Under the pieces are notes generated by a model that was not told the DNA's origin, did not search any database, and was given only the letters and a program-made list of their open reading frames with translations. A program made the position numbers and the translations under genes. 41,355 nt of DNA, taken from the NCBI GenBank assembly GCA_902570675.1, contig CACFYZ010000010.1, positions 1 through 41,355 on the forward strand, given 5' to 3'. The stretch's first letter is position 1, and every line of letters begins with the position of its first letter. Positions 14,337 through 19,060 of the stretch are shown piece by piece. Source of the stretch: an uncultured Pelagibacteraceae bacterium. Its GTDB lineage: Bacteria; Pseudomonadota; Alphaproteobacteria; Pelagibacterales; AG-422-B15.

Positions 14337-14413
14337 GCAGCTGTAGCTCAGTTGGTTAGAGCGCCTGGTTGTGGTTCAGGAGGTCGGTAGTTCGAATCTA
14401 CCCAGCTGTACCA
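14337..14413 (+). tRNA. tRNA-His (GTG), lacking G-1
   Basis: A 77-base tRNA. The acceptor stem GCAGCTG pairs with CAGCTGT with a G1:U72 wobble, the discriminator is A73 (14410), and CCA is encoded. The anticodon loop TTGTGGT has anticodon GTG at 14371-14373, and the T-loop reads TAGTTCGAATCTA. Almost all organisms add or encode G-1 opposite C73 in tRNA-His; a large alphaproteobacterial group has lost it together with a change in HisRS, and this tRNA fits that derived type. Its 3' end overlaps the convergent MFS gene by 16 bases. Confidence 0.95.
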
Positions 14414-15588
14414 GTAATAATTTTTTTTACGGGAAGACTTAACACAATTAAAAATGTAATAATCATAACAAATCCAAAGATTAAATAAAGCACTCCAAAT
14501 TCACCTGTTAGATCATAACTACTTGAAATCATAATCAAGGCGATTGGGCCTACAGTAAAAGAAACTATAAATTTAATACCATATACTAGACTTTGGTACT
14601 TTTCAGGAGAAAATTTAGCAAGAAGTAAATTTTCTGCTGGAAGAACACTTGAATTAAAGGCAACTATCGCAAGACTTAGTACAATCAGCCAGTGATTTGT
14701 AAGGCTTACAATTAAAAGTAGCAGTATTCCCTGCCCAATTATTCCAATTGCGTAAATAAGTTTTTCAGAATATTTATCAGTTAGAATTCCACCAACATAA
14801 TTCATTAATCCACTTACAATGTAAATGGCAGCAATAATATAACCAATATCAGAGGTCGAAAGATCAAGACTATCGGCCAGCCTGATATCAATCACTTTAG
14901 GAAGGCTAGTTTGAAGAATTTGGTAAACAAAACTCAAACAAGTAATACTTAGTAACATGATAATCGCTATTTTAAGCATTTGATTTTTTTCTGGATTCTC
15001 TCTGAATTGCTCTGATGATATATTTTTAATCGAAATCTTCCCTGATTTTAGATGATATGTAAGACATAATCCGACAATTAATGAAATTAATCCAGGGAGC
15101 ATGAAAGCAGCTTGCCAATTAATCTGATCAATCAGTATTCCTGCAAGAAAGGCACCTAACCCGATGCCAACCCCACCAAAAATATTATTAAAACCTAATG
15201 CTCTTCCTGTTTCTTTGGAAGTATTAACCACCCATGATATTCCAGCAGGGTGATAGATCGCACAAAACAATCCAAGCAATGACAAGCTGATAAATAATGA
15301 TACCTTGTTACCACTTAGACCACATAGTATTGAGCTAGTTCCTAGACCGATGAACATAACTGCAATCATTCCTGATCGACTCCATCGATCACTAATCCAC
15401 CCTGCAGGAAGAGCTCCTAAACCTACAAGCAAAGATCCTAAGAACCAAAGGTTTAACAATTCATCATAGCTGTATTGCCACACATCCTCAATTGCGAGAA
15501 CAATTACAAAGTAGAAGGCAGCAAACATATGCATTAGTAAATGTCCCAAGGCGGCATAGGTCACTGTTAATTTGCTGTTATTTTCCAT
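14398..15588 (-). CDS. MFS transporter
   Basis: A 396-residue major facilitator with about 12 membrane segments in two halves and a central cytoplasmic loop (about 190-210). The motif A analogue GALPAGWISDRWSRSGMIAV (58-77) and its second-half counterpart VGGILTDKYSEKLIYAIG are visible; LLGLFCAIYHPAGISWV in the first half is typical of the fosmidomycin-resistance/nitrate-type branch of MFS. The substrate cannot be told. The last codons and the TAG stop lie inside the antisense of tRNA-His, so the message runs into the tRNA gene. It is divergent from the his leader. Confidence 0.85.
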   Translation of the reverse strand: MENNSKLTVTYAALGHLLMHMFAAFYFVIVLAIEDVWQYSYDELLNLWFLGSLLVGLGALPAGWISDRWSRSGMIAVMFIGLGTSSILCGLSGNKVSLFISLSLLGLFCAIYHPAGISWVVNTSKETGRALGFNNIFGGVGIGLGAFLAGILIDQINWQAAFMLPGLISLIVGLCLTYHLKSGKISIKNISSEQFRENPEKNQMLKIAIIMLLSITCLSFVYQILQTSLPKVIDIRLADSLDLSTSDIGYIIAAIYIVSGLMNYVGGILTDKYSEKLIYAIGIIGQGILLLLIVSLTNHWLIVLSLAIVAFNSSVLPAENLLLAKFSPEKYQSLVYGIKFIVSFTVGPIALIMISSSYDLTGEFGVLYLIFGFVMIITFLIVLSLPVKKIITGTAG

Positions 15589-15637: not shown

Positions 15638-15683
15638 TATTAAATAAATTGACTTTTGTAACTAAATAAGTCATTTCAACATC

Positions 15684-15719
15684 ATGTTTAATTTTAAACA
15701 TCATCATTATCATATTTAA
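15684..15719 (+). CDS. hisL: Histidine leader peptide (hisL-like)
   Basis: A short frame starting with ATG codes for MFNFKHHHYHI and a stop: four His codons in five consecutive positions, all CAT. It lies 88 bases before hisS, the first gene of hisS-hisZ-hisG, and ends 3 bases before a hairpin (15723-15742). Runs of codons for the regulated amino acid before an alternative hairpin are the hallmark of transcription attenuation, as in the enterobacterial his operon. The leader start overlaps an 8-2-8 dyad, ATGTTTAATTTTAAACAT (15684-15701). No clear ribosome-binding site is visible, which weakens but does not exclude translation. The peptide is visible directly; the regulation is inferred. Confidence 0.75.
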   Translation: MFNFKHHHYHI

Positions 15720-15720
15720 G

Positions 15721-15759
15721 TTCGCTGAAAAAATCATCAGCGGGCCATAACCCCTTTTT
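15721..15759 (+). promoter_or_regulatory. Putative his attenuator hairpins
   Basis: The stem CGCTGA (15723-15728) pairs with TCAGCG (15737-15742), extendable by two T-G wobbles outward, with an 8-base loop. It starts 3 bases after the leader stop. Next, GGG (15742-15744) can pair with CCC (15751-15753) ahead of a T5 run (15755-15759), a weak terminator-like element. The shared G15742 makes the two helices partly exclusive. By eye I cannot show the full terminator/antiterminator switch. Confidence 0.5.
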
Positions 15760-15807: not shown

Positions 15808-17196
15808 ATGAGTAAAAATAAGAATAATCCAAAGGCAATTTTGCCTAAGGGTTTTAAAGATAGTGATATTGAAATTTTAAATCTTAGAAAGAGAGTAACT
15901 AAGATTATAGAAAACGAATGCCAAAAATACGGATTTATTGAACTTGATACAGCCACAATTGAATTTACTGAGAGTATTGGTAAATTCTTACCTGATGTAG
16001 AAAGACCAAGTGGGGGTGTATTTTCATTTCAAGATGATGATGAAAAATGGTTATCTTTACGATATGACTTAACCGCACCTCTTGCTAGATATGTTGCTCA
16101 AAATTATCAAAATCTTGTCAAACCCTTTAAACGCTATCAATCGGGATTAGTTTGGAGAAATGAAAAACCTGGACCTGGACGATATAGGGAATTTTTACAA
16201 TTTGATGCAGACATAGTTGGTATCGACTCAGCTCTCATTGACGCTGAGTTATGCATAATGGTTTGTGATATTTTAACAAAACTTGGTCTTAATACTTCGC
16301 AATTTGAAATAAAATTCTCCAATAGAGAAATTTGGAAAAATTTATTTTTAACCTTAAAGATTGAAAAAGACACTGAAACAAAAATATTAAGGGCTGTAGA
16401 TAAAAAAGACCGATTGGGCATGGGTGGCGTTAAGGAATTATTACAAGCTGGGAGAAAAGATACATCTGGTGATTATATGGACGGTGTTGGCCTTAGTGAC
16501 GACGTTGCGGACAAAATTATTTCCTTTATGAGTGATCTTAATCAGTCAAACGCCCAAATTGAAGAATTTAATTCTTATATTTCAAATTTTTCCAGCTATC
16601 CAATAAAATTTGATCCATCTGTGGTTCGCGGGCTCGATTATTATACTGGTATGATATTTGAAGCTGAGCTTCTTATTGATGTTACAAATGATAAAGAAGA
16701 AAAAATTGTCTTTGGTTCAATTGCTGGAGGCGGCAGATATGACAAACTCATTTCACGGTTTGGTAAAGATGATGTTCCAGCAACAGGTATATCCATAGGT
16801 GTTGATAGGCTTATAATGGCCTTGAAGCAGCTAGATCTCTTAAAAGCTGAAACAAAACCTTTAGTTGTTATTGCTAATATAGATGATCAAAATATGCCTG
16901 AATATATATCAATGGCCAGAGAAATAAGACGCGAAGGTATTGCATGTGAAATTTCTTTTGACTCTAAAAATCTAGGAAAACAATTAAAGTATTGTGATCG
17001 AAAAGGTGCAAGCATAGTTCTAATAGCTGGGGAAGAAGAGATAAAAAAAGGTGAAATTTCAATAAAAGATCTTGATAAGGGAAAGCAAGTTTCAAAAGAT
17101 ATAACTGATCGAGATAAATGGAAAGAAGCAAAAGCTGGTCAACAAACAATTAAACGGAGTGAATTATTAATCGCCCTAAAAAAAGTTTTGGGTTAA
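15808..17196 (+). CDS. hisS: Histidyl-tRNA synthetase, alphaproteobacterial type
   Basis: A 462-residue class II synthetase charging tRNA-His. Motif 2 reads WRNEKPGPGRYREFLQFDAD, the His-binding signature is VRGLDYYTGMIFE, motif 3 carries GISIGVDRLIMAL, and a C-terminal anticodon-binding domain starts near KPLVVIANI. The motif 2 loop (GPGRYREF with WRNEKP) is that of the divergent HisRS of Alphaproteobacteria, which recognises tRNA-His without G-1 and with A73, matching the tRNA at 14337. A strong ribosome-binding site (AGGAG) precedes ATG 15808. First structural gene of hisS-hisZ-hisG and probably controlled by the histidine leader upstream. Confidence 0.96.
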   Translation: MSKNKNNPKAILPKGFKDSDIEILNLRKRVTKIIENECQKYGFIELDTATIEFTESIGKFLPDVERPSGGVFSFQDDDEKWLSLRYDLTAPLARYVAQNYQNLVKPFKRYQSGLVWRNEKPGPGRYREFLQFDADIVGIDSALIDAELCIMVCDILTKLGLNTSQFEIKFSNREIWKNLFLTLKIEKDTETKILRAVDKKDRLGMGGVKELLQAGRKDTSGDYMDGVGLSDDVADKIISFMSDLNQSNAQIEEFNSYISNFSSYPIKFDPSVVRGLDYYTGMIFEAELLIDVTNDKEEKIVFGSIAGGGRYDKLISRFGKDDVPATGISIGVDRLIMALKQLDLLKAETKPLVVIANIDDQNMPEYISMAREIRREGIACEISFDSKNLGKQLKYCDRKGASIVLIAGEEEIKKGEISIKDLDKGKQVSKDITDRDKWKEAKAGQQTIKRSELLIALKKVLG

Positions 17197-17201
17197 TTAA
17201 A

Positions 17202-18329
17202 ATGTCAATACAAGAACTTAATATCAACTTAAAAAATTATTTCATCAAGTCTGGTTTTGATTATGTAGAACTTCCTTTACTATACGATACTGGTATTTTC
17301 TTTGAAACTTCAGGTGAAGAAATAAGAAGGAAAATGTACTCTTTTATTGATAATACTGGGAAAGAAAAATGCCTAAGACCAGATATGACAGTTCCAACAT
17401 GTCAAAGTTTTATAAATAGTTCGAGTAAAAATGGTGAAGCTAAATTATGTTACAGTGGTCCAGTATTTAGATCCTCACAAGAAAACTCTAATCACTCAAT
17501 TGAATTAAATCAATCTGGTATAGAAGTTATTTTCTCTGAAAAAAATCTGAATAATATTCATGAAATGGATGTTTATATTTTAAAAACAGCAGAAGAAACA
17601 ATTACCCGTTTGGGTCTTAAGAAATTTAGAGTTAAAGTAGGAAGTCTAAAATTATTTAATCAGTTTATTAATACGCTCAAATTACCTGATAGATGGAAGC
17701 AGCGATTAGTAAGACATTTTTTTAGGAGAAACTATTTTGCTAGTTTATTGGAAAGATTAAGTGAAGGTGTAGGATACGATAATGAAAAAAAAGATAGTAT
17801 TCTTAAAGAAAAATTTAATATTGATACGCTTTCTAATGAAAGCTTAAAAGAATTAATTGACCCACAAAATGTAAGAGGATTAGGCTCAAGAACAGCATCA
17901 GAAATCATCGATCGATTTCAATTAAAAAGTCTGAATGTAATAAGTAAATCGGACGGAAAAAAATTTGTTGATTTAATAAATAATTTTTTAAATCTTAGTA
18001 GTAATCTATCAGATTACCCATCTTTACTTCGTGATTTTGTTAAATTAAATAAAATTTCATCTTTTGAAAATGAAATATTGCAAATAGAAAATTTTGTTAA
18101 TTTGATTTCAGAAAAATGTAACTTAGAGAATTTTTATTTTGACAATGATTTTGGACATTCAATTGAATTCTACGATGGTATGATGTTTGAAATTTATGAC
18201 CCTACTGGCCAACATAATTTAATCAGTGGAGGAAGATATGATAAATTGCTTATTGATCTAGGATCTAAAGAAAATTTATCTGCTGTAGGTTTTGCAACCA
18301 ATAACAACAATATAATTAAGCTAGTATAA
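17202..18329 (+). CDS. hisZ: ATP phosphoribosyltransferase regulatory subunit
   Basis: A 375-residue HisRS paralogue that lacks aminoacylation activity and forms a hetero-octamer with short HisG. It has the class II core: LRPDMTVPTCQSF (an RxDMT motif 1/2 analogue), LCYSGPVFR, a late HSIEFYDGMMFEIYD in place of the His-binding loop, and SGGRYDKLL. It starts 5 bases after hisS and ends 2 bases before hisG. The neighbouring short hisG needs HisZ for activity, which supports the call. Confidence 0.93.
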   Translation: MSIQELNINLKNYFIKSGFDYVELPLLYDTGIFFETSGEEIRRKMYSFIDNTGKEKCLRPDMTVPTCQSFINSSSKNGEAKLCYSGPVFRSSQENSNHSIELNQSGIEVIFSEKNLNNIHEMDVYILKTAEETITRLGLKKFRVKVGSLKLFNQFINTLKLPDRWKQRLVRHFFRRNYFASLLERLSEGVGYDNEKKDSILKEKFNIDTLSNESLKELIDPQNVRGLGSRTASEIIDRFQLKSLNVISKSDGKKFVDLINNFLNLSSNLSDYPSLLRDFVKLNKISSFENEILQIENFVNLISEKCNLENFYFDNDFGHSIEFYDGMMFEIYDPTGQHNLISGGRYDKLLIDLGSKENLSAVGFATNNNNIIKLV

Positions 18330-18331
18330 AG

Positions 18332-19033
18332 ATGAGTCCACAAAATAAATTACGAATTGCATTACCTAGCAAAGGTAGACTTAGACAAGACATGCAAACT
18401 CTATTTGAAGAAAAGAAATTAGTTTTCAGTAATCTTGAAAATGATAGAGATTATATTGCAGCTATAAAAGGGATTGATAATGCAGTTGTGTATTTCTTAA
18501 GTGCAAAAGAAATTACGAATAGACTTGATGAGGGATCAATCCATGTTGGTTTAACAGGCGATGATTTAGTACAAGAAAAAATAATTAACTATCGCAATAA
18601 GATTTCAAAAAAACTTAAACTCAACTTTGGAAATGCAAAACTAGTTGTAGCTATACCTGATCTATGGATTGATGTGATGACTATGGCAGACTTAGAAGAA
18701 ATTTGTCATAGTCACAGAACAAAGTTCTCTAAAAGATTGAGAGTTGCTACTAAATATACGAATTTAACTAATGAGTATTTTTCAAATTGCGGCGTTGTTG
18801 ACTACAGAACAGTAGAAAGTGATGGGTCTACTGAAAGTGCTCCATTTAATGGGTTTGCTGAAATTATCACCGATATTACATCAAGTGGCGATACCTTAAG
18901 AGCGAACAACTTAAGAGTACTTAATGATGGTCTTATTTTAGATTCTTCCGCAAATATATTTACTTCCAACGTCGCGGAATGGAATAATGACTTAGAAAAG
19001 ACCTTAGAAGTCTTTATTAATCAAATTGTATAA
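18332..19033 (+). CDS. hisG: ATP phosphoribosyltransferase, short form
   Basis: A 233-residue HisG_S, the first step of histidine synthesis (ATP + PRPP). The start shows LRIALPSKGRL, the middle has the TGDDLV block, and the PRPP-binding loop is in VESDGSTESAPFNGFAEIITDI followed by SGDTLRAN. The C-terminal ACT-like regulatory domain of long HisG is absent, so allosteric control must come through HisZ. The stop codon runs directly into the terminator at 19034-19060. Being the first pathway enzyme, it is the logical target of the upstream histidine leader. Confidence 0.96.
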   Translation: MSPQNKLRIALPSKGRLRQDMQTLFEEKKLVFSNLENDRDYIAAIKGIDNAVVYFLSAKEITNRLDEGSIHVGLTGDDLVQEKIINYRNKISKKLKLNFGNAKLVVAIPDLWIDVMTMADLEEICHSHRTKFSKRLRVATKYTNLTNEYFSNCGVVDYRTVESDGSTESAPFNGFAEIITDITSSGDTLRANNLRVLNDGLILDSSANIFTSNVAEWNNDLEKTLEVFINQIV

Positions 19034-19060
19034 AAAAACCCGGCATGGCCGGGTTTTTTT
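19034..19060. terminator. Bidirectional terminator between hisG and groEL
   Basis: The stem CCCGGC (19039-19044) pairs with GCCGGG (19048-19053) around an ATG loop, flanked by A-runs on the left and T7 on the right. The hairpin works for both strands and lies between the convergent hisSZG and groESL operons. It is the only strong GC-rich terminator noticed in the window. Confidence 0.95.

Follow-up and report, generated by a model that had tools for sequence, protein, structure and literature searches.

A conserved histidine leader peptide and abutting hairpin upstream of hisS-hisZ-hisG in SAR11 bacteria, a probable sensor of charged tRNA-His

Histidine leaders are described upstream of hisG in gammaproteobacteria, upstream of hisZ and a hisS paralogue (hisS*) in Bacillus, and upstream of hisZ in Clostridioides difficile (PMC2965389, PMC4833913, PMC9413887); the authors report no sequence similarity between the leaders of Firmicutes and those of proteobacteria. 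In the alphaproteobacterium Sinorhizobium meliloti, transcription of trpL begins at its AUG (PMC10117765). A survey of structured RNAs in Pelagibacter published in 2009 mentions neither histidine nor leader peptides (PMC2704228), and in the open literature apart from two older surveys, we found no histidine leader described for SAR11 or alphaproteobacteria, for a housekeeping hisS-hisZ-hisG arrangement, or upstream of a tRNA gene. The original prediction for the locus studied here was a histidine leader attenuator of a previously undescribed arrangement. This claim of novelty has to be narrowed, since His leaders have been described for Bacillus, before hisZ and before a hisS paralogue, and for C. 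difficile, before hisZ (PMC2965389, PMC4833913).

The window, i.e. the whole stretch of 41,355 nt (41 kb) that we analyzed, comes from an uncultured Pelagibacteraceae bacterium of the SAR11 group; among named genomes, those most closely related to it are Pelagibacteraceae single-cell genomes, e.g. AG-422-B15 and SAG-MED32. The gene calls for hisS, hisZ and hisG were all confirmed by protein family models (Table 1); hisZ scored below the curated cut-offs, but HisZ was its best match and it is located between hisS and hisG. Upstream of hisS, positions 15684-15719 read ATG TTT AAT TTT AAA CAT CAT CAT TAT CAT ATT TAA, with CAT at codons 6, 7, 8 and 10, and the stop codon is separated from the hisS start by 88 nt. 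No other ATG ORF in the window combines a length of up to 30 codons with four or more His in five codons, while the chance expectation for such an ORF, based on dinucleotide shuffles, is 0.055 per 41 kb on both strands.

Table 1. Coordinates of the features at the leader-hisS-hisZ-hisG locus and of the tRNA-His gene in the window
Feature	Position	Strand	Remarks
tRNA-His(GUG)	14337..14413	+	about 1.3 kb 5' of the leader
-35 element TTGACT of the leader promoter	15649..15654	+	TTGAC invariant in 34/34 distinct family sequences
-10-like element CATTTC	15672..15677	+	17 bp after the -35 element, 6 nt before the leader ATG
His leader ORF, MFNFKHHHYHI and stop	15684..15719	+	11 codons
Hairpin 1, 9 bp, abutting the stop codon	15720..15745	+	pairing, covariation, folding energy
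GGG/CCC + T5, weak alternative hairpin	15742..15759	+	shares bases with the 3' arm of hairpin 1; candidate terminator, specific to the subclade
ACCCC motif	15750..15754	+	invariant in the family; 4 nt past hairpin 1 in the window
hisS, histidyl-tRNA synthetase	15808..17196	+	TIGR00442, 375 bits
hisZ, ATP-PRT regulatory subunit	17202..18329	+	HisZ models best match, below curated cut-offs
hisG, ATP phosphoribosyltransferase	18332..19033	+	TIGR00070, 163 bits
Canonical intrinsic terminator past hisG, CCCGGC ATG GCCGGG T7	19039..19060	+	-12.9 kcal/mol

We compared the stretch before hisS among 44 genomes of the window's family, 37 from the same genus and seven from three other genera, with HisS identities as low as 57%. 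All 44 loci have a leader whose length is exactly 11 codons and which includes three or more His, so that a translatable ORF with tandem codons cognate to the pathway, as is expected for ribosome-mediated attenuation, is found throughout the family. Among the 22 distinct leader ORFs, His6 and His7 are each kept in 21, His8 in 18 and His10 in all 22, with synonymous swaps between CAT and CAC and with the stop varying between TAA and TGA. The amino acids at codons 2-5 and 9 vary freely; the constraint is thus limited to the His codons, the length, Ile11 and the stop. The predicted 11-codon frame with four CAT codons in five positions is present in the window, and its length and His codons are conserved in the family; the lack of conserved His codons in close relatives that would have spoken against the prediction was thus not seen. 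An 8-2-8 dyad over the leader start, ATGTTTAA-TT-TTAAACAT (15684-15701), does exist in the window as predicted, but it is lineage-specific.

The stop codon is directly followed by hairpin 1, formed by GTTCGCTGA (15720-15728) and TCAGCGGGC (15737-15745), with a folding energy of -11.7 kcal/mol. A start of this hairpin three bases past the stop, as originally noted, applies to its CGCTGA/TCAGCG core alone. In the family alignment, 100% of the cells of hairpin 1 are paired, compensatory double changes (CG/UA, GC/AU, AU/GC and others) occur at four of the nine pairs, and the covariation score was reached by none of 500 shuffles. The alignment thus bears out the predicted coupling of a histidine leader peptide to hisS-hisZ-hisG in an alphaproteobacterium, by conserved codons, a conserved stop position and a covarying hairpin past the stop. 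As hairpin 1 abuts the stop in a fixed register, its geometry appears compatible with position-dependent folding. Scanning genomes with a covariance model of the leader and hairpin 1, we detected one strong copy, at the hisS leader, in each of the six family genomes scoring above noise, and no paralogous copy above noise elsewhere in these six.

The leader is preceded by a promoter with a weak -10 element. A -10-like hexamer CAWWTC/G, 17 bp past the invariant TTGAC element and 6 or 7 nt before the leader ATG, was found in all 34 distinct family sequences, and the groES promoter in the same window (TTGACA-N17-TATATG) has the same 17-bp spacing. The family sequences share no Shine-Dalgarno sequence with a constant spacing to the leader ATG. 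Because the spacing from promoter to ATG is so constant, the sequence pattern suggests that the transcript probably starts at or beside the leader AUG, i.e. that the mRNA is leaderless, rather than past 15719, where a start would have spoken against the original prediction.

Judging from the sequence comparisons, the leader very probably senses a shortage of charged tRNA-His for hisS-hisZ-hisG in SAR11. In the mechanism that we propose, a ribosome would begin the 11-codon ORF at once, on a transcript presumably starting at the leader AUG. Ribosomes cover about 12 nt downstream of the A site; thus, a ribosome at His6-8 would leave hairpin 1 free, while one at the stop would cover the whole 5' arm. 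A shortage of His-tRNA-His would make the ribosome stall at His codons 6-8, leaving a gap of more than about 12 nt to hairpin 1, which would then fold between the ribosome and RNA polymerase. With ample His-tRNA-His, the ribosome would reach the stop codon and physically cover the 5' arm, and hairpin 1 would be absent as RNA polymerase passes through the ACCCC/AU-rich stretch. The constant leader length of 11 codons is in keeping with such gating of hairpin 1 by ribosome position. By analogy with attenuators, the hairpin state would be the ON state for hisS, hisZ and hisG, and the gated step would most likely be transcription elongation into the operon.

A sister family of the order, which we infer to be Pelagibacteraceae proper (SAR11 clade I), has the gene order leader - tRNA-His - hisS - hisZ - hisG. 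Its leaders are unlike that of the window, being mostly 24-26 codons long with usually three or four His, e.g. MIKNVKITVNPHRHHFHAGCTLAI. All of the 30 loci tested have a stem, 6 bp or longer, that touches the last His codon, compared with 1.8 of 30 in shuffles, and there are ten distinct stem sequences among these loci. By inspection, a -10-like hexamer and the ATG following it are 7 nt apart in several loci of this family, and no clear intrinsic terminator was seen before its tRNA-His. In loci L081-L093 and L165-L184, tRNA-His is located a few nt before hisS, in an apparent leader-tRNA-synthetase-HisZ-HisG unit. In the window, in contrast, the tRNA-His gene lies apart from hisS, and an MFS transporter gene (14398-15588, minus strand) is located between the tRNA-Phe/tRNA-His pair and the leader-hisS unit. 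This tRNA-His (14337-14413) lacks a templated G-1 and has A73, i.e. it is of the derived alphaproteobacterial type, as has been described for most SAR11 (PMC3937112).

A leader encoding MNTxLHHHHHHA precedes hisS-hisZ in many genomes of a third alphaproteobacterial family, which is GC-rich and comprises G398 and its relatives (L133-L151), and a hairpin CGCGCC/GGCGCG begins at the stop of this leader. Blocking of the 5' arm allows an alternative hairpin (about -13 to -21 kcal/mol) to form in this family, so that the two folds are mutually exclusive; they are not accompanied by a U-tract. Since the two-state logic is explicit here, it supports the sign of the response assumed for the window's family. 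The peptides of the three families are unrelated, sharing only the His run and the abutting hairpin before the same genes. A His leader was missing in most other sampled alphaproteobacteria with hisS beside hisZ, in a class-wide survey of the best-scoring HisS loci.

According to the original prediction, the leader acts by classical attenuation, so that hairpin 1 would be the antiterminator and a GGG/CCCC-T5 element the intrinsic terminator. In the window, hairpin 1 is followed by CATA-ACCCC-TTTTT (CCCC at 15751-15754, T5 at 15755-15759). AGCGGG in the 3' arm can pair with the CCCC before T5 in the window and its close relatives, to the exclusion of hairpin 1, and the G-U pairs kept there in place of A-U would fit selection for terminator pairing. 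However, the stem has only 3 bp and an energy of -3.4 kcal/mol in the window and L003, which is far from the value of the operon's own terminator, whose -12.9 kcal/mol hairpin with T7 suggests that the organism uses canonical terminators. Furthermore, the stem energy is zero in L025, L036, L074, L075 and L077, the stem is limited to the window's subclade, with the G-run missing in the other subclade of the genus and in other genera, and the U-tract after ACCCC is lost in two genera (g2 and g3). Outside the window's subclade, no alternative partner was found for the 3' arm of hairpin 1; the family therefore appears to be without the two-state fold that defines classical attenuators, and both an intrinsic terminator before the first structural gene and exclusive antiterminator/terminator folds are confined to weak candidates in this one subclade. 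Thus, the predicted element does exist in the window, but it is weak and its pairing does not hold across the family, and we consider classical attenuation an unlikely reading. An intrinsic terminator after hairpin 1 was also rejected as the mechanism of the family as a whole, since no U-tract is adjacent to the hairpin and neither the U-tract nor the GGG is conserved. The invariant ACCCC is single-stranded in most relatives, and no conserved pairing partner for it was found across the family. Pairing with a GGG 5' of the leader ATG was dismissed, because it is perfect (8 bp) in L036 and broken elsewhere, and this region is probably untranscribed; in L036 (G042), AAATAGGG 5' of the ATG is fully complementary to CCCTATTT past hairpin 1, and the complementarity is partial in other relatives. 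Pairing with tRNA-His was discarded as well, as the tRNA-His of this genus has no GGGG, and an H-type pseudoknot between the A-rich loop and T5 is, by inspection, lost in g2 and g3.

The lack of a conserved terminator would also agree with translational or mRNA-stability control, where the stalled ribosome or the hairpin alters hisS translation or shields the 5' end; the AU-rich stretch past the hairpin could be a nuclease site, and stalled ribosomes can, as a matter of general knowledge, stabilize mRNA. However, the predicted accessibility of the hisS start was equal, within 0.1, for ribosomes at the His codons and at the stop in 10 of 10 representatives, and masking the 5' arm of hairpin 1 left it unchanged, so these predictions do not show leader-dependent sequestration of the ribosome-binding site. 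A second hairpin before the hisS start (AGTATC..GATACT) is suggestive in some relatives, but mostly not clearly above shuffles, and we do not claim it. In the sister family, the leader is separated from hisS by a tRNA that needs to be excised. This favors a step in transcription and makes a purely translational effect on hisS unlikely in that family; for the element in general, we regard translational or mRNA-stability control as rather improbable. A conserved short gene with an incidental hairpin and no His sensing, such as a translation-enhancing or metal-binding mini-protein, is very improbable: nothing specific speaks for it beyond the general knowledge that His-rich peptides of 11 residues can bind metals, whereas the constraint on the leader and the unrelatedness of the peptides in the three families, aside from the His run and hairpin, both speak against it.

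The reading that we favor, and hold to be reasonably probable, is that a ribosome-gated hairpin senses charged tRNA-His and controls transcription into hisSZG by a non-canonical step, either Rho-dependent or of the pause type. In the window's subclade, a weak candidate for an intrinsic terminator overlaps the 3' arm of hairpin 1. Since no intrinsic terminator exists outside this subclade, Rho-dependent termination or hairpin-controlled pausing would be the likeliest effector there, by elimination; Rho is encoded. More tentatively, SAR11 may possess a terminator-less, leaderless, single-hairpin form of leader-peptide control, with ribosome position at His codons gating RNA polymerase through Rho or pausing; in the sister family, a single element of this kind might jointly govern the tRNA-His gene, its synthetase and the enzyme that starts histidine synthesis, and the charged level of a tRNA would then control its own gene. 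Few regulators are known from SAR11, whose cells rank among the most abundant on Earth, and the element offers a concrete and testable route by which these cells could adjust tRNA charging and histidine synthesis according to supply. With it, His leader control would reach alphaproteobacteria and a housekeeping HisRS, as well as a tRNA gene in the sister family, and a conserved hairpin without a terminator raises the question of how leader peptides act without the textbook terminator switch.

By its sensor, the element is a case of leader-peptide control as far as its sequence can tell, while it lacks the terminator and the two-state fold of a classical attenuator. Like the gammaproteobacterial his attenuator (hisL; Rfam His_leader), it has a short tandem-His ORF before his genes, at which stalling senses charged tRNA-His in hisL. 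However, the SAR11 element would control hisS-hisZ-hisG, has a single hairpin directly past the stop and no conserved terminator, and is probably leaderless; the Rfam His_leader covariance model gave no match to the SAR11 leader region, even at E 5. The His T-box 5' of hisS in Firmicutes likewise couples charged tRNA-His to hisS, but it is a tRNA-binding RNA without a leader ORF, and no T-box of Rfam matched the SAR11 leader region. The leaders of Bacillus and C. difficile are similar in placing a His leader peptide before a HisRS paralogue or hisZ, but the parts of the papers considered describe them with a terminator and an antiterminator, unlike in SAR11, and do not report coupling of the cell's only HisRS with HisZ, HisG or tRNA-His. 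The trpL/rnTrpL attenuator of S. meliloti (PMC10117765) is a Trp leader of trpE that yields an attenuator sRNA, with premature termination established there and not in SAR11; what it shares with the element described here is an alphaproteobacterial leader peptide and, probably, a transcript starting with AUG.
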